Part shown: positions 7,487-48,036 of the stretch, piece after piece
Position numbering within the stretch: position 1 is the first letter of the stretch
Layout of the letters: each line of letters begins with the position of its first letter
IMG/VR virus record: IMGVR_UViG_3300020183_000008
Span: 62,001 to 126,000 of that record
DNA from: a virus
DNA: 64,000 bases
Reading direction: 5' to 3' (one strand)
The notes under the pieces: generated by a model
Databases searched by the model: none
Told to the model about the DNA's origin: nothing
Seen by the model: the letters and a program-made list of their open reading frames with translations, nothing else
Program-made: the position numbers and the translations under genes

Positions 7487-7497
7487 ATAGTATTATA

Positions 7498-8364: not shown

Positions 8365-8420
8365 TTAATCCCTTCCTGACCGAAGATTGTTGATAGCTTC
8401 GATCTTCCAAGAAGAGCTTT

Positions 8421-9563: not shown

Positions 9564-9623
9564 CCTTGTCCCTCGCTAAAACCTCGACCTTGAGGTTTGA
9601 TTTTGATGCCCTACTAAATTTTG

Positions 9624-12299: not shown

Positions 12300-12330
12300 C
12301 CAAACAAGATAAATTCAAAAGTTGGAAAAA

Positions 12331-13014
12331 TCAAAGCGTTTCAAAACAACAAACCAAATCCGATTTTGTTTGATTTATGAGCATCGAGTGTTCAGACAGT
12401 CCTTGGTGAGCTACCCAAGTTGGGTTATCCCCTACGAGGTGCTTAATGTGAAAAGAAACAGCGAATTTCTTTCGAGCCTTAAATATCGGGTTAGGTATCT
12501 TGAAAGAATACCAACCATCAAGAAACTCGGAAAGATGGATATCGTACGTTCTCAGTAACTTACCACCAAAGTCGACATCAAAAATCGTCAAGGTAGCTAA
12601 ACCAGCACCACCTTTTTTCACGCGCATTCGCCATTCTGAAAAGGTATCTTGCTCATGCTTGAAAAGTATTGTAAACTTATGATTTTCTTGCATTTTAACA
12701 TCGGAAAAACCAACTGACTGGAAAGCTCCGAGAGATGATGACCTATGCAAAGAGTGCAGTATTTCAGCCGCTCTACCGTGACTATCATCCACCCATTCAA
12801 ATAACTTTGAATATTTTGCAGACAAAATAGTTATCTTATCAACCGTAGTTTTCGCGAATAAATTTTTTTGACCTACAAGCAGAACCTTGTCGTATCGATA
12901 GGCATCAATAGCAGAAGGATTTATGAATTTCTCGACTTGTATTCGAGAAGAGAGTTGCTTCTCAATCTCGCTCTCTTGGTCATACGGATAAATGACTGCA
13001 ACGAGTTTATTCAT
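12331..13014 (-). CDS. Hypothetical protein of the glycosylation cassette
   Basis: A 227-residue protein. The N-terminal half has a Rossmann-like opening (KLVAVIYPYDQ, YRYDKVLLVG), and HGRAAEILHSLHRSSSL recalls the next gene's FDGVAEILRSLHCLS. The C-terminal half is beta-rich (FDVDFGGKLLRTYDIHL, DGWYSFKIPNP), like a small jelly-roll that follows some glycosyltransferases. It overlaps the next gene by 8 bp. The context suggests a role in glycan or nucleotide-sugar work. The family is not recognised. Confidence 0.55.
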   Translation of the reverse strand: MNKLVAVIYPYDQESEIEKQLSSRIQVEKFINPSAIDAYRYDKVLLVGQKNLFAKTTVDKITILSAKYSKLFEWVDDSHGRAAEILHSLHRSSSLGAFQSVGFSDVKMQENHKFTILFKHEQDTFSEWRMRVKKGGAGLATLTIFDVDFGGKLLRTYDIHLSEFLDGWYSFKIPNPIFKARKKFAVSFHIKHLVGDNPTWVAHQGLSEHSMLINQTKSDLVCCFETL

Positions 13015-13699
13015 AAAGGGCTTTCAACCAAATATGTAAATTATTGTAATGAAGACGCTGAGATAAACAACGCAGCCTAGATCTTTCTAAGTCCCCAGAG
13101 ATGTCCATACCCATCCTCAAGATGTCTAAGCGGGTCAAAGCATCTGAAATCGTGGAAAAGGGTAACATCCAAGGACTGAGGCAATGTAAAGATCTAAGGA
13201 TTTCAGCGACACCATCGAAATCATGTACGAGAAAAGGCTGTTTTCTGATGATTGCATTTAAGAGTTGTTTTTTGCCAACATAGCCCGACTCCAGAATAAT
13301 ATGAATGCCTTGAGAGGGTGCTCGAATTTGCTCGACCGGAATCGATGGGTGAATAGCTTGTCTAACTTCGAGATAGGTCTCATCAAATACAGATAACATA
13401 CCTATTTCATTGAATAAACTTTCCCACCTTCGAATCAATCGAGATGGGGCTTCACAGATTGCGCGATCTAATCTGTAATTCTCTTCAGCCTTTTGATAGT
13501 CAACCGTGATTGGGTAGCTAAAACCAACTAATTTCTCTTTCTCAGGTTCAAATTCTATGTGTTTAACCCCTTTGATTTCAAAACCAACGGTCGCATCGTA
13601 GGGGACGAAAGGCTGTCTAAACTCAGCATCAACATCATGTAAACTGTTGAGAAAAGACAAAAAACTCTTATTGAAATGTGGAGCAACCCCGAGTTTCAT
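13007..13699 (-). CDS. Hypothetical protein of the glycosylation cassette
   Basis: About 230 residues. I place the start at 13699 rather than an upstream codon, because GGAGGT lies 7 nt before this ATG and the ATG overlaps the preceding TGA as ATGA. The sequence starts MKLGVAPHF and contains GVAEILRSLH, also seen in the downstream neighbour, so the two may share a domain. It sits between a GT-B glycosyltransferase and the polymerase, with unbroken coupling. Possibly a glycosyltransferase-like or accessory protein; no catalytic motif is evident. Confidence 0.55.
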   Translation of the reverse strand: MKLGVAPHFNKSFLSFLNSLHDVDAEFRQPFVPYDATVGFEIKGVKHIEFEPEKEKLVGFSYPITVDYQKAEENYRLDRAICEAPSRLIRRWESLFNEIGMLSVFDETYLEVRQAIHPSIPVEQIRAPSQGIHIILESGYVGKKQLLNAIIRKQPFLVHDFDGVAEILRSLHCLSPWMLPFSTISDALTRLDILRMGMDISGDLERSRLRCLSQRLHYNNLHIWLKALYE

Positions 13700-14700
13700 A
13701 GAATCGACCTCCATTTTTTTACAAAAGTTGAGAAAGGTCTTTTTTCCTCTACAGATCTTCTAGCTCTTTTCCCTAATCTTATTGAAACTTCTGGGTTTTT
13801 TATAAGAAACAAGAGATAATTTCGCACTTCCAAAAGATTCAGGGCACTGTAACCGGTGATTCCGTGAAGAATAAGGTCGCTATTCCAGATTCCATTCCCA
13901 ACAACAGGCACACCGCAACTCATCGATGTCAGAGTTGACAGTGATGTAGGGTAACCATCCTGCAAATCTAAACAAGCGTTGTATTGAGAAATGGTATCTA
14001 GTCCAGAATACCAAAAATGGTAGGCTGTCTTGTTTTCATCAGCTTGAATGTTCGGAAGAACACTTCGAAACTGATTTAATGAATCTTGCCCGTAGAGGTC
14101 TACAGGTAGATCCAAAGAAACTAAAGCGGAATAATGATAGCCACTCCCATGTGGATCAGATGGAGGTGCAGGGTGAATAATCAGAGATCTGTTTATTTTA
14201 TTTACGCTGAAAGGGAAATTTACTAATTCAAAAGAAGGCTCAATGACTACAGAATTTTCAAATCCCCACGCCTTTTGGCATGAGACCGATGGGACAACCA
14301 CTAAGCGATCACCGATGATCGTTTTTATGTTGGTAAATAGTTCATCGTCGAGCGGTAAGTCTTTTTGAAAAAAACTTTGCACGTTGAATCGGTCTTTCCG
14401 AGGGGGAGCACCGTGACAAACAAAAATGATTTTTTTAAATTTAGACTTAGCCAAATTTAAAAACTCAGCAGACATTTTGTCTTTAGCTTCACGGCTCAAA
14501 TGACCTAAGCCTAAACAATTATCATCAAAATGAAGAATGAGCGTTTCTTTACTCAATTCGCAGTCTTCGAAGTCTACGCTTCCTGCAAAATTATTAGGTC
14601 GCGCTTGATAGTCCCAATCTATCGATTTACAGAGAATCCAAAATTTGTCGATTTTATTTAATTCATATTGATATATCGGGTCGAATAGGTTTGTAAGCAT
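13696..14700 (-). CDS. Glycosyltransferase, GT-B fold (GT4-like)
   Basis: A 334-residue protein whose C-terminal half carries the family's nucleotide-sugar site: YNACLDLQDGYPTSLSTLTS, MSCGVPVVG, then GITGY. This equals the usual 'E.fg...lEAma.G.PVv....g' pattern. The N-terminal half has IIFVCHGAPP and a WILCKSIDWD opening. It transfers a sugar from an NDP donor to an unknown acceptor. It lies directly after the dTDP-sugar genes, so a dTDP-deoxyhexose is a likely donor. The acceptor could be phage DNA, the virion or host surface glycan; sequence does not say which. Confidence 0.75.
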   Translation of the reverse strand: MLTNLFDPIYQYELNKIDKFWILCKSIDWDYQARPNNFAGSVDFEDCELSKETLILHFDDNCLGLGHLSREAKDKMSAEFLNLAKSKFKKIIFVCHGAPPRKDRFNVQSFFQKDLPLDDELFTNIKTIIGDRLVVVPSVSCQKAWGFENSVVIEPSFELVNFPFSVNKINRSLIIHPAPPSDPHGSGYHYSALVSLDLPVDLYGQDSLNQFRSVLPNIQADENKTAYHFWYSGLDTISQYNACLDLQDGYPTSLSTLTSMSCGVPVVGNGIWNSDLILHGITGYSALNLLEVRNYLLFLIKNPEVSIRLGKRARRSVEEKRPFSTFVKKWRSIL

Positions 14701-14703
14701 GAT

Positions 14704-15531
14704 TTATTTTAGATATTCGTGCAGATGATCTTGCCAAGGATACAATCTCACACCATTTTGGATACTTTTATCGACATTCAGGACGCTGTTCTTAGGTCTC
14801 TTCGCAGGACGCACGAAGTCTTCTGATGAACAAGGCACCACTTTAACAGGATGATTTTTTAAAATATCTTTAGCAAAGTCGTACCAAGAGCAAAAATTAC
14901 TTGAAGCCACGTGCCATTTCCCTTCGGCACCTTGATCTAATAACCAAGAGACAGCTCGCGATACCATTTTCGTACTCGTAGGTCTTCCAAATTGGTCACT
15001 GACGACCTTAATCTCTTTATTATTCGCAGCAATATTTAACATCGTTTTAACAAAATTCGGACCATTGCGACCAAAAAGCCACTGTACTCGAATCAACAAA
15101 GATTTAGCTGAACAAGATTCAATAGCTGTTTCACCGAAAAGTTTACTTTTCCCGTAATTGTTAATCGGATTTCTTTCATCATCTTCTCGATAGAGTGATG
15201 TGGTATTTCCATCAAAAACATAATCTGTGGAAAAATGAACGATCTTTGAATTAACTTTTTCGCAGGCTGATGCGAGATGATAAACACCTAAACCATTAAC
15301 ATCATAACAAAGCGAGTTAATTTCACACTCATCAACTTTTGTAAAAGCGGCGCAATTCAAAACAATTTCAGGGCGAATGTTGAAAAGAGCGGATTCGACT
15401 TCTTTTTTATTTGTAATATCTAATTGTTTTTTTGAAAGGCTATAAGTTTGATATTTACCATTCAAAACAGGCAGCAAATCGAAAGCCAACATTCCATCTG
15501 CACCTGTGAGTAGTAGTTTAGGCTTACTCAT
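14704..15531 (-). CDS. rmlD: dTDP-4-dehydrorhamnose reductase-like enzyme
   Basis: A 275-residue short-chain dehydrogenase of the extended type. It has the NADPH-binding GADGMLAFDL at the N-terminus, the RmlD hallmarks NCAAFTKVDECE and STDYVFDG, and the catalytic NNYGKSKLFGE (YxxxK). Length matches the family (about 280-300). RmlD reduces dTDP-4-keto-6-deoxymannose to dTDP-rhamnose, and related enzymes make 6-deoxytalose. The start overlaps the rmlB stop by 8 bp. No epimerase (RmlC) is in the window, so the real product may differ from rhamnose or need the host enzyme. Confidence 0.87.
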   Translation of the reverse strand: MSKPKLLLTGADGMLAFDLLPVLNGKYQTYSLSKKQLDITNKKEVESALFNIRPEIVLNCAAFTKVDECEINSLCYDVNGLGVYHLASACEKVNSKIVHFSTDYVFDGNTTSLYREDDERNPINNYGKSKLFGETAIESCSAKSLLIRVQWLFGRNGPNFVKTMLNIAANNKEIKVVSDQFGRPTSTKMVSRAVSWLLDQGAEGKWHVASSNFCSWYDFAKDILKNHPVKVVPCSSEDFVRPAKRPKNSVLNVDKSIQNGVRLYPWQDHLHEYLK

Positions 15532-16495
15532 TTCTGCCCCAAAAATTTTCGTAGGTTTTTTCTAACCAATTTCGATTATCTTTGTACCAATTCAAGGTTT
15601 TTGATAACGCTTCATCAAGATCTGTACGCGGTGCCCAACCCAATTTTTTTAATTTTGTGCAATCGACTGAATATCGAAAATCATGTCCTTTTCGGTCTTC
15701 GATAAAATTAAGATGCAAATACAAACCAGATAATCTCTGAACAGCGTGCAAAATATCTAAGTTGGATCTCTCGTTATCTGAGCCGATGTTATAGGTTTCG
15801 CCTATTTCACCTTTTTCAGACAATAAAATAATTGCATCAGCTAAATCTTCAACAAAAAGCCATTCGCGAACATTCAACCCATTTCCATAAACAGGGACAG
15901 GTTTGCTGTTCATCATCAAATAAAGTGCTCGGGGTAAAAGTTTTTCAGGGAGCTGCCTCGGACCAAAACAATTCGAAGGGCACACGTTAATTACAGGTAG
16001 CTTGTGCGTTTCCCTAAAAGCATTAGCGAACAATAATTGAGATGCTTTACTCGCTGAATACAAATTCCTAGGTGCGATCGGAGTAGTTTCTGTGAAACAC
16101 CCATCATGAGTTGGGAGATGCCCAAAAATCTCATCGGTAGCAAAGTTGATGACCTTAGGTACTTCGGTCTCCCTACAAGCCTCAAATAGATAAGATGAAC
16201 CTAAAACATTTGTTGTAATAAAATCTTCAAAATTAGATATGGATTTATCCACTGAAGACTCAGCCGCAATGTGTACGACTAATTCATAAGGACCGAAGTT
16301 TGAAAAAACGTGTTCAATGTTGTCTTTTCTTCTAAGGTCAGCCTTAAAAAATTTTACATCTAACCCAGAAATATGCTCTTTGAACCCGCTGTAAGATAGA
16401 GTATCAAAAACATGAACTTCATACCCTTGATCCAAAAATCTTCGCACCACGGTGGAACCAATAAATCCGCAACCACCTGTAATCAAAACTTTCAT
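15524..16495 (-). CDS. rmlB: dTDP-glucose 4,6-dehydratase-like enzyme
   Basis: A 323-residue NAD-dependent dehydratase. Visible RmlB features are GGCGFIGSTVV, HIAAESSVDKSI, ATDEIFG (the Asp-Glu catalytic pair), LYSASKAS (YxxxK), GPRQLPEKLLPR, VREWLFVEDL and EDRKGHDFRYSVD. It converts dTDP-glucose to dTDP-4-keto-6-deoxyglucose, the branch point for most deoxysugars. It is slightly shorter than bacterial RmlB (about 350-360). It forms one operon with rmlA upstream and rmlD downstream. Confidence 0.9.
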   Translation of the reverse strand: MKVLITGGCGFIGSTVVRRFLDQGYEVHVFDTLSYSGFKEHISGLDVKFFKADLRRKDNIEHVFSNFGPYELVVHIAAESSVDKSISNFEDFITTNVLGSSYLFEACRETEVPKVINFATDEIFGHLPTHDGCFTETTPIAPRNLYSASKASQLLFANAFRETHKLPVINVCPSNCFGPRQLPEKLLPRALYLMMNSKPVPVYGNGLNVREWLFVEDLADAIILLSEKGEIGETYNIGSDNERSNLDILHAVQRLSGLYLHLNFIEDRKGHDFRYSVDCTKLKKLGWAPRTDLDEALSKTLNWYKDNRNWLEKTYENFWGRNE

Positions 16496-16849
16496 TCAAT
16501 CACCATCCCACACACCATCAGGTCTAATTTGAGCTAAAGCTAGCAAACCGTAAAGGGACTGTTTTGCATTACCTTCTGTCGGTTTCCAATAATCGACATC
16601 AGTATCATCTTTTAGTTGGGCTATAGCTTTTTTTATAACAGGCAAGCTCTCTGCCCCAGTCATCCCATAAATTGCTCTTATCCCTTTTTCTCCAAAAATT
16701 TTGTAAAAAAATGGCGCATAATTATAAGTGATGTTGAGATGAAGCCTGTCATTATTGATAGCATAGGCGCCACCTCTAATTTGATGAGGACTCTCTGAAT
16801 GTAAAACTTCTTTTGTCACAGGGTCTATGAGAGACAAGTCATAGCTCAT
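16496..16849 (-). CDS. Hypothetical conserved-looking protein between rmlA and rmlB
   Basis: A 117-residue protein beginning MSYDLSLIDPVTKEVLH and ending ALAQIRPDGVWDGD, with LNITYNYAPFF and IYGMTGAES in between. The acidic, aromatic-rich, cysteine-free sequence suggests a small soluble globular protein. It abuts rmlB without a gap, so the unit is co-translated with the sugar genes. I do not assign a function. It is too short and lacks the motifs for an RmlC-type epimerase. Confidence 0.65.
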   Translation of the reverse strand: MSYDLSLIDPVTKEVLHSESPHQIRGGAYAINNDRLHLNITYNYAPFFYKIFGEKGIRAIYGMTGAESLPVIKKAIAQLKDDTDVDYWKPTEGNAKQSLYGLLALAQIRPDGVWDGD

Positions 16850-16852
16850 AAA

Positions 16853-17722
16853 TTACCTTTGCCATTTTCTGAGAGTTTTTGAGTAGTAGCTCATTTCATG
16901 TAGAACCTGATCTTTGTTATTTCCGCTTTCTACACAATTTTGCCACTTCTCTATTGAACTAAGAGGAATTGAAAGACCATTATCGATAGAAAACAACTTC
17001 AATCGAGGTGGAGGGTTGTTTTTGATAAAATTAGCCGCTTCTAACAACGATTCTGGAGAACCCATGTCCGTCCAATACCCATGAACAGTTGTAGATTCGA
17101 GGCGACCTTGCTCAAGATAGGCTTGAATAATATCTGTTACTTCTAGCTCACCTCGACCTGAAGGCTTGATCTTCTCAATAATATCAAAAACATCAGAGTC
17201 AAAAATATAAGCACCGACGACTGCGAGATTTGACTCAGGTTGTTTTGGTTTTTCGATGACTTTTAAAACTTTTCCAGATTCGTCCACAGTCGCAACTCCG
17301 AACGCTTTTGGGTCATCCACAGGTTTTAAAAGAATCTTTCCACCACCTCGATAGGTAGAGACGAACTCTGCTAAAGAATCTTCAAAAAAGTTGTCGGCAA
17401 GAATAACGCAAACAGGACTATTACCAACGAAAGGTCGGGCACAGCGTAAAGCATCTGCGATACCACCCTCACGATGTTGATACCCGAAATTGACGCTGTT
17501 CAATCCAAATTCTTTACCATTACCAATATACTCAATGACTTTCCCTGAATTTCTTGATCCTACAACGGCAACGACATCTTTGATCCCAGCTTCAACTAAA
17601 TTAGATAGAGGATATTCAATCATGGCGCGATCAAAAACATAAATCATGTGTTTGTTTACAACACGGTGAGTGTAATACGACATTCGTGTACCTAATCCAC
17701 CTGCGAGAATAACACCTTTCAT
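16853..17722 (-). CDS. rmlA: Glucose-1-phosphate thymidylyltransferase-like enzyme
   Basis: About 289 residues, starting MKGVILAGGLGTRMS. I use ATG 17722 rather than a more upstream codon, because AGGGGGTC precedes it and it forms an ATGA overlap with the previous gene. Family features are GGLGTR (nucleotide loop), NKHMIYVFDRAMIEYPL, ILADNFFED (metal-binding Asp) and VIEKPKQP. The enzyme joins dTTP and glucose-1-phosphate to give dTDP-glucose, the first step for the rmlB and rmlD products encoded next. Confidence 0.9.
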   Translation of the reverse strand: MKGVILAGGLGTRMSYYTHRVVNKHMIYVFDRAMIEYPLSNLVEAGIKDVVAVVGSRNSGKVIEYIGNGKEFGLNSVNFGYQHREGGIADALRCARPFVGNSPVCVILADNFFEDSLAEFVSTYRGGGKILLKPVDDPKAFGVATVDESGKVLKVIEKPKQPESNLAVVGAYIFDSDVFDIIEKIKPSGRGELEVTDIIQAYLEQGRLESTTVHGYWTDMGSPESLLEAANFIKNNPPPRLKLFSIDNGLSIPLSSIEKWQNCVESGNNKDQVLHEMSYYSKTLRKWQR

Positions 17723-18852
17723 TTTTGACCCCCTAAAATTTCGGTATAAGTCTGTTCCCAAAGTTTGTAGTTTTTACTGATATCGTAATCAGCTTCAGCG
17801 GTTCTTCTACCGTTTTCAGAGATCATATTGTGAAGCAAAGGATCTCGAATTAAATCTTGGATATATTGATACCATTCAACGGCGATACCTCTCGAATCTT
17901 TTTCATCTGAAGCCAAAAATCCGTTCACACCATGAGTGATGGTTTTTGTATAGTTCTCAATATTGGATGCTACACAGGCAGCACCAAAGGAAAAAGACTC
18001 GATTACCTTCAAATTACTTTTTGCATAATTGAACGGCAAATTGACGATAGGGCAGACAGAAATCGTCGGTCCTAAACGGATAAGATATTGCAGACAGGCA
18101 TGAAAATAATGAACAGGTATAGGATCCAAAACATAAAGCTGATTTGGATAAGGCTTCATCATTTTGAGAAAGTCAGCGGTACAACAACCGACCTTAACGA
18201 AAGCCACATCAGGGTTTTTTTCAGCTAACTCGGCTAAAGTTTGATCGATAATCGCAAGGTCTTTACTATGCGTGGGAGACCCCCACCAAATCACTTTCGT
18301 TTTCCCTTTTAGTCGAGCGAACATGGATTCTTGTGAAAGCACCTGTTGATGAACAGAGCGTGAAATAGAATTAGGATCCTTGAAAACTAAGTATTGTAAC
18401 CAGCGATTATCAGGTTGCCTCATAGCTTCAAGAGCTTTTAAGTCCATCGAATTCGGCAAAACATAAATGTTCTTATTGATACCTAAATGAACTTTTCTCA
18501 AATAATCAGTAGAAACTGTACAAGCATCAACTAGACCAATAAAGTTTAAAATCTTTTGTTTTTTATCTTTATAAAAATCATGTGCTGCGTTCCATTCAGG
18601 GATTTCAGTCATAAGGTCATCGCACTCGAAAAAAACAGGCTTACCTAGAGATTGAGCGAGCTGAACATAAGGAACAACGGCATCTTGATATTGCTTCTGT
18701 ACAATAACCACATCAGCCCATCGGATTTCATCTTCATCGTAACGATGAGAAACCCTGACGAGGTGACCTGCTTTTGCTAGGTACTTAAATGGTAACTGGA
18801 TACGAAAAAGACCGCACCCATCGAATCCTGAAATATAAGCAAGAATTTTCAT
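17719..18852 (-). CDS. Glycosyltransferase, GT-B fold
   Basis: About 377 residues, starting MKILAYISGFDGCGLFR. In-frame GTG codons lie just upstream, but ATG 18852 is the more likely start. The pattern VPYVQLAQSLGKPVFFECDD and YVLPNSMD in the first half, with KSNLKVIESFSFGAACVAS, THGVNGFLA and NGRRTAEADYD in the second, is typical of GT-B enzymes with a C-terminal donor site. It is coupled to rmlA. Donor and acceptor are unknown; it is the second of two clear glycosyltransferases in the cassette. Confidence 0.78.
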   Translation of the reverse strand: MKILAYISGFDGCGLFRIQLPFKYLAKAGHLVRVSHRYDEDEIRWADVVIVQKQYQDAVVPYVQLAQSLGKPVFFECDDLMTEIPEWNAAHDFYKDKKQKILNFIGLVDACTVSTDYLRKVHLGINKNIYVLPNSMDLKALEAMRQPDNRWLQYLVFKDPNSISRSVHQQVLSQESMFARLKGKTKVIWWGSPTHSKDLAIIDQTLAELAEKNPDVAFVKVGCCTADFLKMMKPYPNQLYVLDPIPVHYFHACLQYLIRLGPTISVCPIVNLPFNYAKSNLKVIESFSFGAACVASNIENYTKTITHGVNGFLASDEKDSRGIAVEWYQYIQDLIRDPLLHNMISENGRRTAEADYDISKNYKLWEQTYTEILGGQK

Positions 18853-18887
18853 AATCACCACTATAACATGAGTTTTTCTGGATTCAA

Positions 18888-19544
18888 TCAGAACAGGACG
18901 CTTAACTTGTTGCCTCTTATATTTTCAACATAACCGCATCGGGAAATCAAAGTATAACGGGTCTTTTCGACCACCAAAGGACTTACTGAATGACAAAACG
19001 TAGGAACCACATTACAGATTGATACAAGCACTCCGTGTTCAGCTACAATCTCTTGCACTCTATCAATACTATCTTTGATTCCCCACCACGTTTTGTCTAG
19101 TTTCCACGAGCCACACAAAAGATTACCACCGTACTCAGAAATCCACTTTTCCGAAGTCAAAAATAAACAATTCGTGACGTGAAGACCCTCATGTACATCA
19201 TTGTGAAAGGGAAGGTGTACACCTTGTTTATGCTGGTGAAGTAGCGTGGTACGCTGCGAAAAGTCACCGTATAACAAACGCCAATAATCAAAATAAGGCT
19301 GTGAAAGTATTGAATCCCATATAGAAGTAATCTCAGATGGGGGTTTGTTATCCGATGTTTTTTTGCTGAAAGCACTGTCCCAGTCAGGTATTTGAGGATT
19401 AGACTTCTTAGTCTTCGACTCTTCTCTGAAATTTTGGCTTTCTGCAATTTTTAGAAATTCATCTGCAAAAGACTTTTTTAAACGGGTTGCAGTCCAACCT
19501 TTTGAAAAGAAATGGTCTGCATCAAATAATTCGTCTTGCAACAT
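18888..19544 (-). CDS. 2-oxoglutarate/Fe(II)-dependent oxygenase
   Basis: About 218 residues. The iron site is visible as PFHNDVHEGLHVT (HxD), a double-stranded beta-helix region EYGGNLLCG, the distal His in FCHSVSPL, and the 2OG-binding Arg in KTRYTLISR. This is the prolyl-hydroxylase-like branch, which hydroxylates protein or small-molecule substrates; other branches hydroxylate DNA bases. It lies between primase/helicase genes and the sugar cassette, so a role in preparing an acceptor for glycosylation is attractive but unproven. The start overlaps the primase gene by 23 bp. Confidence 0.75.
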   Translation of the reverse strand: MLQDELFDADHFFSKGWTATRLKKSFADEFLKIAESQNFREESKTKKSNPQIPDWDSAFSKKTSDNKPPSEITSIWDSILSQPYFDYWRLLYGDFSQRTTLLHQHKQGVHLPFHNDVHEGLHVTNCLFLTSEKWISEYGGNLLCGSWKLDKTWWGIKDSIDRVQEIVAEHGVLVSICNVVPTFCHSVSPLVVEKTRYTLISRCGYVENIRGNKLSVLF

Positions 19545-20055
19545 CACTTAAACCGATCTTAGACCGCAGCGTTTTTACCATATCCATGTTTTCAGTCTCT
19601 TCTGCTTTGTCCAGAACGTAAAAAGATTTCGCGTATTTCTCTAAGCCAAGGTCTTTCTTTTTTTCAATCAACTGCTTTTCAGTAATTCGCAAAAGATCAG
19701 CCAAAGATAAATCACGAATAGAAGGGGTTTGCTGCGGTCGAGATTCTCGGCTTACAGGAGAATCTTCGACACCATCCCACTTAACACCAAATTGTTTTTC
19801 TAACAGATAACAAGAATCTCTGAAATTTACTTTTTTGTATTCTGAATAAAAACCAATGATATCGTAGGCAACCCCGCAAGCAAAACATTTAAACAATTCG
19901 TTGCGGTAAATGCGAGCAGATGGTTTTGAATCTTGCCCGTGAAAAGGGCACCTCATTTGAAAATCACCATCCGCGCTCGATGGTAATAAATTCAATAAAG
20001 ATAAAACATCAGTCATGTGAACGTGATTTTTGATGTTCTTAACTCTATTTTTCAA
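19522..20055 (-). CDS. DNA primase CHC2-type zinc-binding domain protein
   Basis: A 177-residue protein with the primase zinc finger: CPFH (C36, H39) and CFAC (C57, C60), with GQDSKPSARIY between. This module recognises template trigger sequences in DnaG and T7 gp4. No TOPRIM or RNA polymerase domain follows, so the catalytic part must be a separate polypeptide, not seen in this window. The apparent start is TTG (20053-20055) after AGGGATAAC; an ATG 13 codons later is an alternative. It is 36 bp downstream of the helicase. Confidence 0.8.
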   Translation of the reverse strand: MKNRVKNIKNHVHMTDVLSLLNLLPSSADGDFQMRCPFHGQDSKPSARIYRNELFKCFACGVAYDIIGFYSEYKKVNFRDSCYLLEKQFGVKWDGVEDSPVSRESRPQQTPSIRDLSLADLLRITEKQLIEKKKDLGLEKYAKSFYVLDKAEETENMDMVKTLRSKIGLSDVARRII

Positions 20056-33796: not shown

Positions 33797-33960
33797 CCTA
33801 AGATGATAGCAAATTTAATACAAACACAATTCTCATTTCAAAAACATCCACAAAGATGTCTGAAATAAATTTATGCTCATAAGAAACTACTCACTCTGGT
33901 CGCTCATATCAGAGAATTTCGACTCACCTCGTATCCCTTTTGGAGCTTGGCATCGAGTCT

Positions 33961-34020
33961 ACAGTTAAGAGGGTTTTCTAGCTTCAGGAGCTCAAGCATC
34001 CTGTCCTAACTGTTTGTTTT
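33961..34020 (+). terminator. Stem-loop with following T-rich tract
   Basis: ACAGTTA (33961-33967) pairs exactly with TAACTGT (34007-34013). Inside, CAGGA and TCCTG form a second stem. TTGTTTTT follows on the plus strand. It could terminate a short rightward transcript or be part of a structured RNA. No gene is upstream on that strand in the gap. Confidence 0.35.
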
Positions 34021-34077
34021 TACTGTTTCTTATAGATGTTTTTCTTCTTTTCCTATTTCAGTTTTTTGTCTTTGTTT
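34021..34077 (+). repeat. Partial copy of the 94-bp direct repeat
   Basis: By my alignment, 55 of 57 bases match the first part of the two full copies at 35002 and 35176. It lacks the CTTTGTTTC-AAA-GAAACAAAG hairpin half, and the sequence diverges after CTTTGTTT. Confidence 0.85.
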
Positions 34078-34442
34078 TTTTTCGAACTTTCGGGGCTTCA
34101 CTTTTCATCGTGTCCGTCCAACCACGAGGCTTTCACCTCGATTCTCCGAGCATCTCGACGAGCTTTCATTTCTAAAAGCGGGGCGAGTGTCTTCTCTGGT
34201 CCATCCGTTTCACAGGTAACTTCTTGGGTCGTCGACCCTTGTCGCTACGAGCTACCCACCGCAGACACCCAACTTAAACTATCGTTCGGTGACGCTACAG
34301 GAGATGATGTTATCGGCTGTGCCCTGACCTAGTTCAGATGATGCTGTAAAGATTGCACAGGGATGAAATAGTTCACCCCTTCGAACCAACAGCCTATGCT
34401 CCCACAAGACTGACCTACATGAAGACCATTACTTCAGAAAGT

Positions 34443-34805
34443 GATGGTAGTGAACATCACCCATTTCCATAAACCTTTTGCCCTTAACTTCTCAGGTAAA
34501 CAGTAGCGGAATTCAATCCATTCCCATAAACCTAGATACGCTTCTATGAAGACCATCAATCAAGAAGGTAACAGTAGCGGAATTCAACCCATTCCCATAA
34601 ACCTTTCCCACCAACTTCTCCAAGATAAACAGTAGCGGAATTCAATCCATTCCCATAAACCCTAGATACGCTCCTACGAAGACCATTAAAGACAAGAAGG
34701 TAACAGTAGCGGAATTCAATCCATTCCCATGAACCTTTGACTTAACTTCTCTGAAGGATTGCAGTAGCGGAATTCAATCCATTCCCACAAACCTTAGATA
34801 CGCTT
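34443..34805. repeat. Six-unit repeat array with alternating 58 and 71-74 bp spacing
   Basis: Five units carry a near-identical core from CAGTAGCGGAATTCAATCC to ATTCCCATAAACC, starting at 34501, 34572, 34630, 34704 and 34762; a degenerate sixth begins near 34443. Start-to-start distances alternate 58, 71, 58, 74, 58. Each core forms a hairpin GGAAT-TCAATCC-ATTCC. The two linker types also alternate: one holds TAGATACGC(T/C)(T/C)CTA and GAAGACCAT, the other AACTTCTC. It is not CRISPR, because the linkers are repeats themselves. Confidence 0.85.
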
Positions 34806-34815
34806 CTGCAAGTGT

Positions 34816-34845
34816 TACTTGCTTACAGAATGAACTCTGTCTTTC
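34816..34845. other. Nested hairpin closing the repeat array
   Basis: GCAAGT-GTT-ACTTGC forms a perfect stem inside an outer TTCTG/CAGAA pairing, directly after the last array unit. It supports an RNA or cruciform role for the array. There is no U-tract, so it is not a standard terminator. Confidence 0.4.
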
Positions 34846-34918
34846 GGTAAACTAACTATCAAGAATAGATACCTGTTCACACATTGTTCATCTGAACGAT
34901 TACATAATAGACAGACAA

Positions 34919-34928
34919 TTTCGGCGGA
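34919..34928 (+). promoter_or_regulatory. TTTCGGCGGA element, exact
   Basis: An exact copy in the central region between the repeat array and the 94-bp repeats. One of seven exact copies in the window. No -10-like hexamer sits at a fixed distance. Confidence 0.55.
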
Positions 34929-35001
34929 GTCAATAACTCATCTAAGATTTTCAAAATAAATATACTTGACTACTTTTGATGCATTTAATCGAGGGCAGTC
35001 T

Positions 35002-35095
35002 TACTGTTTCTTATAGATGTTTTTCTTCTCTTCCTATTACAGTTTTTTGTCTTTGTTTCAAAGAAACAAAGTAAGAGGGTAAGATCTATATCTAT
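35002..35095 (+). repeat. 94-bp direct repeat, copy A
   Basis: Identical by eye to 35176-35269. It contains the 9-bp stem CTTTGTTTC-AAA-GAAACAAAG and a 22-codon open frame (35017-35082, starting MFFFSSYYSF) without a ribosome site. The purine-rich complement (GGAAGAGAAG) is notable. The hairpin is not followed by a T-run on either strand. Confidence 0.9.
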
Positions 35096-35175
35096 TTATA
35101 TTTATATTTATAATGATCTAAAATATAGCATTTTATGTTTGATTACTTTTATAGCACTATGACATGATAGATACC
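35096..35175. other. AT-rich tract between the direct repeats
   Basis: A run of TTATATTTATATTTATAATG and similar sequence with very few G or C, exactly between the two 94-bp copies. Such a tract could be a duplex-unwinding element of an origin. No gene is visible. Confidence 0.45.
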
Positions 35176-35269
35176 TACTGTTTCTTATAGATGTTTTTCT
35201 TCTCTTCCTATTACAGTTTTTTGTCTTTGTTTCAAAGAAACAAAGTAAGAGGGTAAGATCTATATCTAT
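35176..35269 (+). repeat. 94-bp direct repeat, copy B
   Basis: Identical by eye to 35002-35095, with the same hairpin and the same 22-codon frame (35191-35256). The copies start 174 bp apart. The lack of divergence implies recent duplication or active maintenance by selection or recombination. Confidence 0.9.
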
Positions 35270-35314
35270 AAATATTGAGTAAAGGATAGTTCATAGGAGA
35301 AGAGAAGAGGATAG

Positions 35315-35362
35315 GGATACCTCATAGGATACCTCATAGGATACCTCATAGGATACCTCATA
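35315..35362 (+). repeat. Four tandem copies of a 12-bp unit
   Basis: GGATACCTCATA is repeated exactly four times. Imperfect relatives lie on both sides (GGATAGTTCATA at 35284 and GTAGCTCATAGG just after), along with AGAGAAGAG tracts. It is placed 70 bp upstream of the first rightward gene, where iterons or an operator array would act. Confidence 0.85.
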
Positions 35363-35431
35363 GAAGAGAAGAGTAGCTCATAGGGTGAGATAAATCGTTC
35401 ATCCTTTTCAACCTACGGATGGGGGTGAAAG

Positions 35432-38158: not shown

Positions 38159-38845
38159 ATGGAAATTTCTAAAGATTTTTTTGTAGGTGGGGGTTGGCAC
38201 CCTTCAAATGACCTACTCGACTCCGACTTCCCTGAATGGTTTTATAAGGAAACAGTTTTTCAAACTGAAAAGAAAAAACAAGTTTATCTTGATGGGCATA
38301 CTTTCAATTTGCCTTTAGAAAGTCATTCCTACGTTTTTCGATGGATCATGCCCCAAAAACCAAACATCTATAAGCCTGATTGGGAAATCCCAAATGATTA
38401 CAGGATGGCTTCTGTCCTAAGATTTACTGTAGGTGAGTGGTTTGGATTGACGGAACAAGACTTAAACGAAGTGCGCGAAGGTCGAGCTAACCTATCAAGA
38501 GATAAACTCGCGCACATTTCGAAAGTGCTTGAAAACTCGTTTCTGTTTAATGGGTTGAAAATACCCTACATCGAAGTTCGGTGTGATTGGGTGTCAGACA
38601 AAGAACTACAAAATTTTATCGATTTCCATCAAGGGAAAACTGCTGAACAAGCGTTCTTAATTACAAAAAACGTAAAAGAGTCACAAATTAAACAAAAACG
38701 TGAGTTATTACGAAGTGTCACAGACACCTTACGTTCCAAACCCAATTTCCTTTCAATTTTGAGGGATGTGGTGGGTGAAAAAATCTCGGTCGAAGATGCA
38801 GTCGAGATGACAGGTAACTCAGGTATTTTTCAAAAGGGTGTGTGA
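38159..38845 (+). CDS. Hypothetical protein upstream of nrdA
   Basis: A 228-residue protein rich in aromatic residues in the first half (SDFPEWFYKETVF, SYVFRWIMPQKPN), with a charged helical second half. I do not recognise the family. Its TGA overlaps the nrdA ATG (TGATG), so it is co-translated with ribonucleotide reductase and sits 3 bp after the delta-like gene, in a DNA-synthesis operon. Confidence 0.65.
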   Translation: MEISKDFFVGGGWHPSNDLLDSDFPEWFYKETVFQTEKKKQVYLDGHTFNLPLESHSYVFRWIMPQKPNIYKPDWEIPNDYRMASVLRFTVGEWFGLTEQDLNEVREGRANLSRDKLAHISKVLENSFLFNGLKIPYIEVRCDWVSDKELQNFIDFHQGKTAEQAFLITKNVKESQIKQKRELLRSVTDTLRSKPNFLSILRDVVGEKISVEDAVEMTGNSGIFQKGV

Positions 38846-41160
38846 TGCAGATTGTAAAACGTAATGGAAAAAAAGAAGACGTTAAGTTCGACAAAATCCT
38901 GCAACGAGTGAAAAATCTTTCGGATGGTTTGAAAGTTGAGCCTGTAGCTGTTTCTCAAAAAGTTGTAGCTGGTCTTGTTGATGGTATTTCATCGACCAAG
39001 ATTGATGAGTTGTTGGCAGAAACCGCAGCCGTGCTCACAACCGAGCACCCTGACTACGCTTGTTTGGCTGCAAGAATTTCAGTATCCGCCTTACATAAGG
39101 TCACAGCTTCGTCGTTCTACCAAACGATGAAACAGCTTTATAAAGAAGGTGTCCTTTCAGATCAGTTCATCGAATTTTTGCGCGGAAATGGGCAAAAGAT
39201 TGATGCCATGCTCGATTATGAGCGTGACTTTAATTTTGAATACTTTGGTTACAAAACACTAGAAAAAGGCTACCTGCAAAAGATCAATGGGAAGATTGTT
39301 GAGAGACCTCAACATCTATTTATGCGCGTTGCCGTTGGTGTCGCCGGTTTGGGTGGTGGCACTCTGGATGATGTGAAAGAACTGTACGAAATGATTTCGA
39401 ACGGTTTGTACACTCACGCGACACCTACGCTGTTCAATGCGGGTACAAAAAGACCTCAACTTTCGAGTTGTTTCCTTACATCCATGAAATCTGACAGCAT
39501 CGAAGGCATATATGACACTCTTAAAGAGTGCGCTTTAATTTCAAAAAATGCAGGTGGTATCGGTCTTCATGTTCACAATATTCGTGCTACAGGCAGCCCT
39601 ATCCGTGGAATCAACGGCACGAGCGATGGTATCATCCCGATGCTCAAAAACTTCAATGAGACTGCACGATATGTAAATCAAGGTGGTCGTCGTAAGGGAT
39701 CATTTGCAATTTATCTCGAACCTTGGCACGCGGATGTCGAGGCTTACCTTGACCTAAAAAAGAATACAGGGAAAGAAGAAATGCGGGCGAGAGACCTCTA
39801 TCTTGCTCTGTGGATTCCAGATCTTTTCATGAAGCGTGTCAGAGAAGATGGAAACTGGACTTTGATGTGCCCTGATGAATGCCCTAACTTGCCTGATGTT
39901 TGGGGTGATGAGTTTGAGAAACTCTACACCAAGTATGAATCTGAAAATCGCGGTCGCAAAACCATCAAAGCGCGAGAATTGATGGCGAAAATCATCGAAG
40001 CTCAGATTGAAACAGGTGTACCTTATATTTTGTTCAAAGATGCAGCGAACGCTAAGTCAAACCAACAAAATCTTGGCACCATCAAGTCATCGAATTTGTG
40101 CTGCGAAATTATTGAATACTCAGATCCAACAGAAACCGCTGTTTGTAACTTGGCAAGCATCTGTTTGCCTAAGTTTGTCAAAAATGGGGCATTTGATCAT
40201 GAGGCTCTCGGCAAAGTCGTGCGTGTTGCGACTCGGAATTTGAACCGTGTTATCGACATCAACTATTATCCGACACCCGCTACTAAAAAATCGAATGATA
40301 GGCATCGCCCGATTGGATTGGGTGTGCAAGGTCTGGCTGATGTTTTCTTTATGTTAGGTCTGCCATTCGAATCTGTAAAAGCACAAGAGTTGAATCAGCA
40401 AATTGCTGAAACGATTTATTTTCACGCTGTCACTGAATCGGTTGAACTTGCGAAAGAACAGGGAGCCTACGCGACCTTCCAAGGGTCACCTGCATCTCAA
40501 GGAAAACTTCAGTATCATCTTTGGGGTGTAACTCCCACGATGAAATACGACTGGAAAGGTCTTGAGAAAAATGTTGTTGAATTTGGACTGAGAAACTCTC
40601 TCTTGGTCGCACCCATGCCTACAGCTTCAACCGCTTCTATTTTTGGCAACATCGAGTGTTTCGAAGCTATTACCTCAAACCTCTATAAGAGAATGGTTTT
40701 GGCAGGGGAGTTTGTTCTGGTAAACAAATATCTTGTAGCCGACCTTGAAAAGCTGAATCTCTGGAACAAAGAGATGCGGGATCAAATCATCGCTGAAGGT
40801 GGTTCAATCGCAGGTGTCTTCGAAATCCCCGATGAAATCAAACAAGTGTATAAAACTGTTTGGGAAATTAAAAACCGAACAATCATCGACATGGCTGCGG
40901 CACGTGGTCCTTTTGTTTGCCAAAGTCAGTCTATGAATCTCTGGTTTGCAAAACCGACGTTTGGGGCAATCAACTCCGCGTTGTTCTATTCATGGGAGCG
41001 TGGATTAAAGACAGGTAGCTACTATATCCGAACGAAACCCGCTCTTGAAGCAGTAAAAGTCACGACAAACACTAAAACAGATAAACCTGAATATACGGCT
41101 CAAGAAGCTATCGTATGTTCTCTCGACAACCCAGAAGACTGTGTTGCTTGCTCTTCATAA
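38845..41160 (+). CDS. nrdA: Ribonucleotide reductase class I, large subunit
   Basis: About 771 residues from ATG 38845; an adjacent upstream GTG is less likely. The N-terminal ATP-cone begins MQIVKRNGKKEDVKFDK. Catalytic features are PQLSSCFL (first redox Cys), SSNLCCEI (radical Cys and Glu), ETAVCNLAS (second redox Cys), PMPTASTASIFGN, and the C-terminal shuttle pair CVACSS. It reduces NDPs to dNDPs with NrdB. Length is normal. The intact ATP-cone implies dATP feedback control. It supplies dNTPs for phage replication. Confidence 0.96.
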   Translation: MQIVKRNGKKEDVKFDKILQRVKNLSDGLKVEPVAVSQKVVAGLVDGISSTKIDELLAETAAVLTTEHPDYACLAARISVSALHKVTASSFYQTMKQLYKEGVLSDQFIEFLRGNGQKIDAMLDYERDFNFEYFGYKTLEKGYLQKINGKIVERPQHLFMRVAVGVAGLGGGTLDDVKELYEMISNGLYTHATPTLFNAGTKRPQLSSCFLTSMKSDSIEGIYDTLKECALISKNAGGIGLHVHNIRATGSPIRGINGTSDGIIPMLKNFNETARYVNQGGRRKGSFAIYLEPWHADVEAYLDLKKNTGKEEMRARDLYLALWIPDLFMKRVREDGNWTLMCPDECPNLPDVWGDEFEKLYTKYESENRGRKTIKARELMAKIIEAQIETGVPYILFKDAANAKSNQQNLGTIKSSNLCCEIIEYSDPTETAVCNLASICLPKFVKNGAFDHEALGKVVRVATRNLNRVIDINYYPTPATKKSNDRHRPIGLGVQGLADVFFMLGLPFESVKAQELNQQIAETIYFHAVTESVELAKEQGAYATFQGSPASQGKLQYHLWGVTPTMKYDWKGLEKNVVEFGLRNSLLVAPMPTASTASIFGNIECFEAITSNLYKRMVLAGEFVLVNKYLVADLEKLNLWNKEMRDQIIAEGGSIAGVFEIPDEIKQVYKTVWEIKNRTIIDMAAARGPFVCQSQSMNLWFAKPTFGAINSALFYSWERGLKTGSYYIRTKPALEAVKVTTNTKTDKPEYTAQEAIVCSLDNPEDCVACSS

Positions 41161-41168
41161 GGTGATTT

Positions 41169-42095
41169 ATGACAGATAATAGATATTCTATTTTTCCAAT
41201 CAAGCATTCAAATTTGTGGGAAGCCTTCAAAGTTCATCAGCGTGCGATCTGGACTCTTGAAGAGCTAGATTTTGCGAGAGACCTACAAGATCTTCCAAAA
41301 CTCACAGCGGGTGAATTACATTTTGTTACTTGGGTGCTAGCATTTTTTGCTCAATCAGATGGAATTGTGAATGAAAATTTGGCAATCCGTTTCTATAAAG
41401 ATGTAGAAATTCCAGAAGCTCGCGCCTTCTACACAATGCAAATGCTCATCGAGACTGTACATGCTGAAACGTATGGCAAGTTGATCGAGACTTATGTTTC
41501 TGACTCTCAAGAGCGGAATAAGTTGTTCAACGCGATCGAAAATATCCCAACTATCGCCGAAAAAGCGAAATGGGCGATGAAGTGGATTGATTCACAAGAA
41601 AACTTTGCAAAACGATTAGTCGCATTCGCTGTTGTTGAAGGCATTTTTTTCAGTGGGAGTTTTTGCGCGATTTTTTGGTTTAGAAAGCGGGGCTTACTTC
41701 CAGGTTTAGCGAGTGCCAACAATTTGATTGCTCGTGATGAAGGTTTGCATTGGGTTTTTGCAGCCGAACTTTTCAAAGAGATGGGCTTGAAACTAAGTGT
41801 TGAAGATTTCAGAACGATCGTGACCGAAGCGGTCGAAATCGAACGTCATTTCATCACCGATGCTTTGCCTGTCAGCCTGATTGGAATGAATGCAACTCTC
41901 ATGGCACAATATATTGAGTACACAGCGGACAGATTGTGCGAAAAATTTGGTTACGAGAAAATTTACAAAGTAGAAAACCCATTTGATTTCATGGCTTTAT
42001 CTGATTTAGAGCTTAAAGGTAATTTCTTCGAAGTGAGGACTACGGAGTACCAAAAGCCTTTATCGAGGTCTCTTGATTTCGACTCTGATTTTTAA
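41169..42095 (+). CDS. nrdB: Ribonucleotide reductase class I, small subunit
   Basis: A 308-residue ferritin-like protein. The first iron ligands and radical tyrosine appear in LIETVHAETYGKLIETY (ExxH and Tyr), and the second set in VEGIFFSGSFCAIF and ARDEGLHWVFA (ExxH). It generates the tyrosyl radical for NrdA. It lies 8 bp after nrdA with AAGGTG as ribosome site. The C-terminal LDFDSDF resembles the tail that docks to NrdA. A strong terminator follows. Confidence 0.95.
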   Translation: MTDNRYSIFPIKHSNLWEAFKVHQRAIWTLEELDFARDLQDLPKLTAGELHFVTWVLAFFAQSDGIVNENLAIRFYKDVEIPEARAFYTMQMLIETVHAETYGKLIETYVSDSQERNKLFNAIENIPTIAEKAKWAMKWIDSQENFAKRLVAFAVVEGIFFSGSFCAIFWFRKRGLLPGLASANNLIARDEGLHWVFAAELFKEMGLKLSVEDFRTIVTEAVEIERHFITDALPVSLIGMNATLMAQYIEYTADRLCEKFGYEKIYKVENPFDFMALSDLELKGNFFEVRTTEYQKPLSRSLDFDSDF

Positions 42096-45233: not shown

Positions 45234-45707
45234 ATGGAACTTACTAAGAAAAAAAAGGAAAAGAGGGCTGAAGGTGAGCACACCGAGGGTTACTTGCGAA
45301 TCCTCGAAAGACGCAAACGTGAAGCTAGTTATAAATTGTATAAAAAGATGGAGATCGTAGACTTGCTTACAGGAGTCTGTGATTTACCAAAAGCAAAAAT
45401 TGGAAATGTTTTTGATGCTTTCTGTGATTTACTTGTGGAAATTTCACACACAGAAAGCATCATCCAATTTCCAAAATTCGGTCGAATCATCTTTGAACCT
45501 AAGTTTCAAAGACGCATTTTTAATCCAAAGCTAGATCGCACTGTTATTTACCAGAACCCTCGCATCACTCTTCGATTGTCAGCGAGGTTGAGAACTTTGC
45601 TTCGAAAGCAATTCCGGAGAAACTGTTATCAGCTCTATGAGTTGAACGGTTTAACTCCAAGTGTTTATGTTAGATCTGAAAGAAAAAAGAAGGGCGCTGA
45701 TGAATAA
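45234..45707 (+). CDS. HU/IHF-family DNA-binding protein
   Basis: A 157-residue protein: a basic N-terminal extension (about 40 residues), then the HU fold. KMEIVDLLTGVCDLPKAKIG is the first helical hairpin, QFPKFGRIIFEPKFQRRIFN the strand pair, and FNPKLDRTVIYQNPRITLR the DNA-binding arm, with NPK in place of NPR/NPx. A basic C-terminus (LRKQFRRN) follows. It probably bends or packages phage DNA. The ribosome site is AGAGGGAACC. Its last codons overlap the lon start by 8 bp. Confidence 0.75.
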   Translation: MELTKKKKEKRAEGEHTEGYLRILERRKREASYKLYKKMEIVDLLTGVCDLPKAKIGNVFDAFCDLLVEISHTESIIQFPKFGRIIFEPKFQRRIFNPKLDRTVIYQNPRITLRLSARLRTLLRKQFRRNCYQLYELNGLTPSVYVRSERKKKGADE

Positions 45708-48036
45708 AGATCAGATCAAGTTTGAAGAGGAATTGCCTTTGATGCCTATTAGGGATGTAGTCATGTTTCCGAACATGATTATACCTTTTTTCGTAGGCAG
45801 AGAAGAATCCATCCGTTCTATCAACTTCGCCTTGCAGCACACCCACCGAGTTGTGATTTGCGCGTCGCAAAAAGATATCTTGAATGATAAACCGTCTCCT
45901 TCAGACATCTATGAAATCGGTACTGCTTGTTTAATCGTCCGCACCAAAAATGTACCTGATGGACGGGTTAAAATTTTGGTTCAAGGGCTAGGTAAAGTAA
46001 AAATAACCGAGTTTGTGTCATCCAATCCTTATGTAGTTAAATATGAAAGGATAGATGAACCCGCCGATTCTCAAGAGGATCCTGAAACAATCGCTATCGT
46101 ACAGCTCGTGAAAGATAACATCACTCAGCTTATCGATCTCGGGAAGTTTATTACTGCCGAGGCTCCAGCTATCCTTGAAGAAACAGATGCAGGTAAACTT
46201 GCAGATTTACTTGCGGTAAATCTAACCCTCAAGGTCTCTGAAAGCTACGCTCTTCTTGAAGAAATTTCCCCTAAGAAACGACTAGATATCATTAACAAGC
46301 ATCTTGTAGCTGATATTGAAATCCACAAAATTCAGCAAAAAATAAAAAACACTACAAAAGAAGAGATGACTAAAACTCAACGCGAGTATTATTTGCGTGA
46401 GCAACTCCAATCTATTCGCAAAGAGCTAGGCGAAGTAGAAGACAAGGAAGGTTATTCGAAAAAAATCAAAGATGCGAAAATGCCTCCTGAAGCTGAAAAA
46501 GAAGCTCTGAAACAAGCTAAGAGGTTGGATTCTTTAAGCCCTGATTCTTCCGAAAGCGGCTTGATTAAACATTATCTTGATTGGATGGTCGAGGTTCCTT
46601 GGTCAATCTCTACTGAAGATGATACAAGCATTTTGCATAGCCGAGAAATCTTGAACGAAGACCATTTCGGTCTTGAAGATGTGAAAGAAAGAATTCTTGA
46701 ATTCTTATCAGTAAGAAAACTTAAAGCTGATAGTAAAGGTCCTATCTTATGTTTTGTTGGACCCCCTGGTGTTGGTAAAACTAGCATCGGTCGATCTATC
46801 GCTAAATCTCTCGGACGCAAGTATATTCGCTGTTCTTTAGGTGGTGTCCGTGATGAGGCTGAAATTAGAGGTCATCGTCGAACCTATATTGGTTCCATGC
46901 CAGGAAAAATCATTCAAAGCCTAAAACAAGCAGGTAGCAATAACCCTGTTTTTATCTTGGATGAGATTGATAAGATGGGGCGTGACTTTAGAGGTGATCC
47001 ATCAGCGGCTTTGCTCGAAGTTCTTGACCCTGAGCAAAACAGAGAATTTAAAGACCATTATCTAAATGTACCTTTTGATGTAAGCCAAGTTTTTTTCATC
47101 GCCACAGCAAACTCGTTGGATACGATTCCAGGACCTTTGCTAGACCGCATGGAAGTCATCAAGGTATCAGGTTATACTGATCGTGAAAAACTTGAAATCT
47201 GTAAACAATACCTTTTGCCTAAACAGCAAACAGAAAACGGTTTGAGCGATAAAGTTATTGAATTTACAGAATCAGCGATTCAAAAGATTATTCGAGGTTA
47301 TACGCGAGAAAACGGTTTGCGTAATCTTGAAAGGCTTGCCTCTAAAATTTATCGTAAAATTGCCCTGAAAGTCGCTGAAGATGGTGTTGATGGTAATTTC
47401 AAGATCGATGCTGAGGATATTCCGACCTACTTAGGTAGTGTGAAGTATCTCGATGATGACTTGGCTGAAAAAGATTTGGTAGGGGTTGTCACAGGTCTGG
47501 CTTGGACAAGCGTTGGTGGTGAAACTCTGGAAATGGAAGCTATTAAAGTTCCAGACACTACCTTCAACATCAAGGTCACAGGTCAGCTTGGTAGCGTTAT
47601 GAAAGAATCATCAGAGATATCTTTCAGTGTTGTCAAAAGCAAACTCTCTGAATTAGGTGTGAACATCGAGGATCACAAAAACACTTCCATCCACGTTCAT
47701 GCCCTTGATGGAGCCGTGCCAAAAGATGGACCTTCGGCGGGAATCACGATGGCTGTCGCTATAGCGAGTGTCTTGTCTGATCGTCCGATCAGCAGGGATG
47801 TAGCCATGACGGGTGAGCTCTCGTTAACAGGAAGGGTTATGATCATCGGTGGGGTGAAGGAAAAACTAATCGCCGCCGCAAGGAAAGGCTGCAAGAAAGT
47901 CCTCATCCCTAAAGATAACTTCAAAGACTTGGAAGATGTTCCCAAAGAGGTTCTCTCAGCTTTAGAGGTGGTTCCTGTGAGTACGATAGATGAAGTATTC
48001 AGCCACTCTCTGAGCAAAAAAAAGAAAAAGGGGTGA
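45700..48036 (+). CDS. lon: ATP-dependent Lon protease
   Basis: About 778 residues from ATG 45700, chosen over an in-frame upstream ATG because family proteins start just before LPLMPIRDVVMFPNMIIPFF and GAAGGG precedes it. Domains in order are the LON substrate domain, a coiled coil, and an AAA+ core (Walker A GPPGVGKTS, Walker B VFILDEIDKM). The S16 protease follows, with catalytic Ser in KDGPSAGITMA and Lys in GGVKEKLIAAARKG. It appears complete and active. Full-length Lon in a phage is uncommon. It may degrade host regulators or phage proteins. Confidence 0.96.
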   Translation: MNKDQIKFEEELPLMPIRDVVMFPNMIIPFFVGREESIRSINFALQHTHRVVICASQKDILNDKPSPSDIYEIGTACLIVRTKNVPDGRVKILVQGLGKVKITEFVSSNPYVVKYERIDEPADSQEDPETIAIVQLVKDNITQLIDLGKFITAEAPAILEETDAGKLADLLAVNLTLKVSESYALLEEISPKKRLDIINKHLVADIEIHKIQQKIKNTTKEEMTKTQREYYLREQLQSIRKELGEVEDKEGYSKKIKDAKMPPEAEKEALKQAKRLDSLSPDSSESGLIKHYLDWMVEVPWSISTEDDTSILHSREILNEDHFGLEDVKERILEFLSVRKLKADSKGPILCFVGPPGVGKTSIGRSIAKSLGRKYIRCSLGGVRDEAEIRGHRRTYIGSMPGKIIQSLKQAGSNNPVFILDEIDKMGRDFRGDPSAALLEVLDPEQNREFKDHYLNVPFDVSQVFFIATANSLDTIPGPLLDRMEVIKVSGYTDREKLEICKQYLLPKQQTENGLSDKVIEFTESAIQKIIRGYTRENGLRNLERLASKIYRKIALKVAEDGVDGNFKIDAEDIPTYLGSVKYLDDDLAEKDLVGVVTGLAWTSVGGETLEMEAIKVPDTTFNIKVTGQLGSVMKESSEISFSVVKSKLSELGVNIEDHKNTSIHVHALDGAVPKDGPSAGITMAVAIASVLSDRPISRDVAMTGELSLTGRVMIIGGVKEKLIAAARKGCKKVLIPKDNFKDLEDVPKEVLSALEVVPVSTIDEVFSHSLSKKKKKG

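Follow-up and report, generated by a model that had tools for sequence, protein, structure and literature searches.

Genomic Context of the Array

A divergent noncoding gap of 1635 bp is located at positions 33797-35431 of the window, the stretch of 64,000 nucleotides analysed here, which corresponds to positions 62001-126000 of the 155270-base virus record IMGVR_UViG_3300020183_000008. The gap is the largest clearly noncoding stretch outside a giant collagen-like gene, and it coincides with a strand switch, where leftward tail genes are opposed to a rightward operon encoding, in order, a metalloprotease-like protein, a DksA-like protein, the clamp-loader protein delta' (PF13177), a delta-like protein, an unknown protein, and the large and small subunits of RNR. 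With an ORF cut-off of at least 60 aa, the segment 34333-35431 is likewise the largest gap outside the giant gene, and the ORF at 34036-34332 is judged to be spurious. Elsewhere the record holds few long noncoding stretches.

The gap contains an array of interspersed direct repeats at 34445-34793, together with three further repeat families. Two copies of a 101-bp direct repeat are found on the plus strand at 35002-35102 and 35176-35276, which are 98% identical and each carry a perfect 21-bp palindrome, CTTTGTTTCAAAGAAACAAAG, located at 35051-35071 in the first copy; the first 58 bp of this repeat recur at 34020-34077 with 97% identity. A 12-bp tandem repeat, GGATACCTCATA, follows in 4.1 copies at 35315-35363 (plus strand). 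The 101-bp repeats flank 35081-35180, which according to nearest-neighbour energies is the least stable 100-bp window of the whole 155-kb record and lies in the same gap, 0.3 kb from the array, as a candidate DNA-unwinding element.

The record encodes portal, large terminase, maturation protease, major capsid protein, clamp and clamp loader, A-family polymerase, DnaB-like helicase, UvsX, RuvC-like and SbcCD-like proteins. Its major capsid protein is 74% identical to that of the uncultured phage LR745208 (485 kb), 50% identical to that of the Tunturiibacter phage Tunturi_5 (308 kb) and 37% identical to that of Bacillus phage G. These relationships make it probable that the record is part of the genome of a huge tailed phage. 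Relatives of the capsid protein are encoded by at least 507 stretches in IMG/VR. One close relative, a 56-kb viral contig with a 93% identical capsid protein, is devoid of the array core, and it may not cover the junction.

Several other features of the record were observed in passing. On the minus strand, positions 2-19780 of the record form one open frame of at least 6593 aa that is cut by the record end, whose 18-bp period yields collagen-like G-X-Y repeats and whose GC content is 54%, versus 39% elsewhere in the record. A 791-aa Lon-like protease, 42% identical to phage proteins annotated as lon, is encoded at 45661-48036 of the window. The RNR pair at 38842-42095 is about 54% identical to that of many unrelated-looking viral contigs, which have no other gene in common with the window; this distribution suggests transfer of the pair, and since only the RNR pair is shared, these contigs are of no help for synteny. 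Scans for relatives with the metalloprotease and tail proteins found none.

Architecture of the Repeats

The array consists of six cores in the same orientation, five of which are near-identical 32-bp copies of CAGTAGCGGAATTCAAYCCATTCCCAYRAACC at 34501-34532, 34572-34603, 34630-34661, 34704-34735 and 34762-34793, while the first (34445-34475) is degenerate and one base shorter, being only 61% alike over the 46-nt repeat and lacking both the GGAAT and the ATTCC arm in register. The original prediction had described six units with a core of about 34 bp, each containing GGAAT-TCAATCC-ATTCC, at distances of 58, 71, 58, 74 and 58 bp. The six direct repeats are indeed present, with a core of 32 bp across the five good copies, and the last four distances are exact, while the first amounts to 56 bp. 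The 17-mer itself occurs four times exactly and once with one mismatch, which is explained by the degeneration of the first copy and by the loop TCAACCC of the third (34572-34603).

Tandem Repeats Finder reports the array with a period of 132 and a score of 488, which puts the repeat itself well outside chance expectation. The linkers alternate between long and short and fall into two classes, the members of which are related within each class. The long linkers of class A (34533-34571 and 34662-34703) are 88% alike over their first 32 nt, and the short linkers of class B (34476-34500, 34604-34629 and 34736-34761) are more diverged, with ACTTCTC in common. Alignment confirmed the predicted pair period of 129 and then 132 bp as well as the relatedness of the alternating linkers, and pair units two and three can be matched over their full length, which supports the proposal that the array grew by duplication of a two-part unit. 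Between these two units the cores differ in 3 of 64 columns (5%) and the linkers in 24 of 69 (35%), a large contrast for which the Fisher test gives p = 1e-5, a value that is overstated since the boundaries of the core were drawn from these very copies and the test is thereby biased toward core conservation.

Within the core, the arms GGAAT and ATTCC form a 17-bp dyad around seven nucleotides (GGAAT-n7-ATTCC), and the conserved block reaches well past this dyad. No further copy of the core, even a weak one, was detected elsewhere in the record, and the exact core was absent from all viral contigs and relatives' records searched; nucleotide searches of phages and plasmids returned nothing useful. 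The array region contains no ORF of 100 aa or more, and the core falls in alternating frames.

Hairpins, Folding and Promoter-like Matches

The cores had been predicted to be hairpins, which the folding analyses did not bear out: a 5-bp stem with a loop of 3-8 nt arises in 8.7% of shuffled cores, the 481-nt array region gains no fold stability over its shuffled versions, with z = +0.61 for one strand and -0.18 for the other, and no compensatory changes were found in the core stems. Sliding-window folding and pair counts likewise gave no sign of structure in the array. The array is thus unsupported as a structured RNA by folding or covariation, and this option of the original prediction was abandoned. 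No match in the array was obtained with Rfam at gathering and permissive thresholds, with the tRNA scan or in the tmRNA search, which, together with the relatedness of the linkers, agrees with the earlier view that the locus is not a CRISPR, rRNA or tRNA.

At its left edge the array is bordered by a 10-bp hairpin, ACCATTACTT-CAGA-AAGTGATGGT, at 34425-34448, and at its right edge by nested and adjacent hairpins at 34804-34840 (GCAAGT-GTT-ACTTGC inside TTCTG...CAGAA, and ACAGA-ATGAAC-TCTGT), all read on the plus strand. The latter correspond to the closing nested hairpin that had been placed at 34816-34845, its actual location being about 34804-34840. These edge hairpins are visible in the sequence and unremarkable in the fold statistics. 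Elsewhere in the gap, the minus strand of positions 33800-33899 folds far more stably than its shuffles (z = -5.5, 40 shuffles); this segment is situated in the leader of a leftward 92-aa gene.

A sigma-70-like promoter match, TTGACT-18-TATTAT, is located on the minus strand at 34904-34933, from where transcription would run leftwards through the array. Such matches are no commoner in this region than chance predicts, with three found versus 4.9 expected in shuffles.

The Corresponding Junction in Relatives

Several relatives possess a noncoding gap at the syntenic position, and none of them has this array sequence, so that the absence of any array from the relatives' gap, which the original prediction had named as grounds for refutation, applies in part. 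In LR745208, where gene content and order on either side of the gap are partly in common with the record, a low-GC, hairpin-rich noncoding stretch at 434967-436206 contains both of the two least stable windows of that genome and is followed by delta', a methylase, delta and RNR. In Tunturi_5, a divergent gap of 444 bp at the tail/RNR junction lies directly before a gene annotated as replication initiation protein, followed by a DnaC-like helicase loader and RNR, likewise according to the annotations; Pfam supports an AAA ATPase for the loader, whereas for the initiator its sole signal is an RP-C hint below threshold. In a third relative (G016), a noncoding, AT-rich gap lies about 4-5 kb upstream of delta'/delta/RNR-like genes and includes a 24-bp tandem repeat. 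This gap (L209:6400-7540) has the lowest stability of its stretch.

The core 9-mer TTCAATCCA is present in the gaps of both Tunturi_5 and LR745208. Random segment pairs showed the same sharing in 2 of 20000 cases and shuffled pairs in 4 of 3000, figures to be read with the fact that the length of nine was chosen after the match had been noticed. Since, moreover, the orientation differs between the two gaps and five further relatives have neither the array nor TTCAATCCA upstream of RNR, the shared 9-mer is treated as a lead only.

LR745208 also carries five exact GTGGATTGAAAC elements genome-wide, versus about 0.06 expected, each of which follows a hairpin, with the hairpin sequences differing. 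Two of them lie in the syntenic noncoding stretch (L088:35230-35370) and the others at 117124, 123100 and 481756, and three are directly before or near gene starts. The hairpin-GTGGATTGAAAC elements look like what we take to be type I-C CRISPR repeat ends, and they may equally represent a 5'-UTR motif of that phage.

A Candidate Replication Origin

The array is real and unusual, and the reading that suits it best is that of a candidate origin or control array in a huge phage. More specifically, we favour, at a little under an even chance, a role as iteron-like sites for protein binding, set in a region of the huge tailed phage that would combine a replication origin with divergent control. Multiple direct repeats with a conserved core are found in noncoding DNA, AT-rich and easily unwound DNA (35081-35180) adjoins them, several repeat families share the gap, replication genes lie downstream, and the matching gap of the cultured Tunturi_5 is followed by an annotated initiator. 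Among the four options that had been raised, namely an origin, a structured RNA, an RNA sponge and a recombination site, the origin is accordingly the best supported, given its position in the largest noncoding strand-switch gap; for the recombination site, no site-specific integrase or recombinase was recognised among the scanned proteins, and this option is without support.

Protein binding, the identity of the protein, unwinding and the start of replication at the array are all steps that we infer. A DNA-binding protein, most simply a phage initiator that went unrecognised in the 155-kb record, would occupy the 32-bp core as a dimer, whose two halves would fit half-sites of the GGAAT-n7-ATTCC dyad spaced by about 12 bp. 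Its binding would favour opening of the AT-rich segment 35081-35180, where helicase and replisome could be loaded, and might also influence both divergent operons, the leftward tail genes and the rightward clamp-loader/RNR genes. No initiator gene was recognised beside the gap or elsewhere among the scanned record proteins, and AT-rich DNA also marks promoters, which counts against the origin. So do the departures of the core and its spacing from textbook iterons, the lack of an array or common motif upstream of RNR in most relatives, and the confinement of the exact core to this record among those searched.

The cumulative GC-skew minimum of the record is located at the gap. As an origin sign it was rejected: at fourfold sites the sense strand has a similar GC skew in every group that contains enough genes, and the same skew on both sides of the gap, so the minimum is explained by gene orientation. 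In Tunturi_5, moreover, the turn of the skew at this junction is in the opposite direction. A strand-composition switch caused by replication, a supportive rather than strictly defining mark of an origin, was therefore not found here. Huge phages with a skew suggesting bidirectional replication have been reported (PMC7162821).

Alternative Explanations

The cores might instead be operators for a phage transcription regulator of both divergent operons, with no direct part in replication, a reading that we consider rather unlikely. It accounts for the position between two divergent operons and for the dyad as well as an origin does, the 17-bp dyad resembles a phage dimer operator in size, and the gap holds several repeat families and promoter-like matches. 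Those matches, however, do not exceed chance, the conservation of the core extends well past the dyad, and the restriction of the core to the array implies that such a regulator would serve this gap alone; the unstable DNA and the annotated initiator of Tunturi_5 would also be left unexplained. Nonfunctional tandem duplication, the null hypothesis, in which slippage or recombination copied a two-part unit that has been drifting since, with the cores kept alike by gene conversion or chance, appears quite improbable. The absence of the array from every relative searched and the alternating linkers, as expected from simple duplication of a pair, are in its favor. Plain duplication does not predict, on the other hand, that the cores differ far less than linkers of the same age, and a long noncoding stretch is exceptional in this record.

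A noncoding RNA is also conceivable and, in our estimation, unlikely: a leftward transcript from the promoter-like match at 34933-34904 would act as a multi-copy decoy, aimed for instance at an RNA-binding protein of the host or, as an RNA anti-CRISPR, at the processing of CRISPR RNA. On the minus strand each core can alternatively fold into a G-U-rich hairpin of 7 bp that is capped by a GNRA loop. The core also contains, on that strand, TGGATTGAA, which we take to resemble the 3' end of some CRISPR repeats of type I-C. The 7-bp stem survives each of the three substitutions by which the five good cores differ; in the degenerate copy, 6 of the 7 pairs and a GNRA loop remain. This survival argues little for an RNA, since a G-U-rich stem tolerates most transitions, and random ones spare it about half the time. 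The two hairpin-GTGGATTGAAAC elements in the syntenic stretch of LR745208, which are like type I-C repeats, count in favour of a decoy. Against it stand the lack of excess fold stability on either strand and of compensatory change, the lack of a stem upstream of the TGGATTGAA tag, and a conserved block that continues 3' of the supposed tag into sequence that a CRISPR mimic would have no need to conserve. An exact 20-mer scan of bacterial genomes with the core gave a match in one genome only, inside an amino-acid permease gene; this match is attributed to chance, as it lies on a Planctomycetota contig, encodes GGIQSIPKG of an amino-acid ABC permease, and is accompanied by neither an array nor a shared gene. 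A CsrA sponge was considered separately, as the minus-strand loop GGATTGA looks GGA-like, and was rejected because the record holds no CsrA gene and folding lends no support. Broader still, the junction before the clamp-loader/RNR operon could be a noncoding hub of the clade, whose TTCAATCCA-bearing elements, the repeat-like hairpins of LR745208 and the six-copy array of this record, would titrate, as RNA, a host factor such as the CRISPR RNA machinery, besides or instead of an origin; we assign this only a slight probability.

Significance

To our knowledge, the replication origins of huge phages have seldom been pinpointed, and for genomes from metagenomes most assignments are guesses based on GC skew. 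The gap described here offers a concrete, testable origin candidate with defined putative binding sites, in a clade that, judging from the capsid relatives retrieved in one scan, is very common in metagenomes, and it illustrates how GC skew alone would mislead. If the RNA decoy were true, the array would constitute a multi-copy form of a phage counter-defence RNA.

Comparison with Known Systems

With a repeat of about 32 bp and an average unit of about 65 bp, the array superficially resembles a CRISPR array. It departs from one in that the "spacers" are related and alternate, the repeats are imperfect and the linker length is set by class; no cas genes were recognised among the neighbouring phage proteins scanned. 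The minus-strand core contains TGGATTGAA, which is repeat-end-like with respect to what we take to be the type I-C consensus. Like the solitary repeat units of RNA anti-CRISPRs (PMC10651486), the array lies in noncoding phage DNA and has a promoter-like match no more than 250 bp away; unlike them, it comprises six clustered copies, matches no host repeat that was found, is conserved in sequence past the tag and has no stem before TGGATTGAA. In LR745208 such stems do precede the GTGGATTGAAAC elements, which in this respect resemble the solitary repeat units (PMC10651486). With phage operator arrays the locus shares several dyad-bearing sites between divergent operons, and it differs from them in having neither an identified regulator nor copies elsewhere in the genome.

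Compared with textbook iterons, the array has a longer core, of about 32 bp rather than about 20, and a wider, more irregular spacing that alternates between 58 and 71-74 bp. The array also differs from iteron origins in that no initiator gene was recognised, and its function as an origin is putative. The likenesses to the origins of lambda, P1 and the PLE satellite (PMC7145576) are direct repeats with an internal dyad in noncoding DNA, more than one repeat family, AT-rich unstable DNA nearby, and replication genes that adjoin the repeats or lie at the relatives' gap. The PLE satellite of phage ICP1 likewise possesses a noncoding origin with several classes of repeats, one of which is the iteron of its initiator (PMC7145576).
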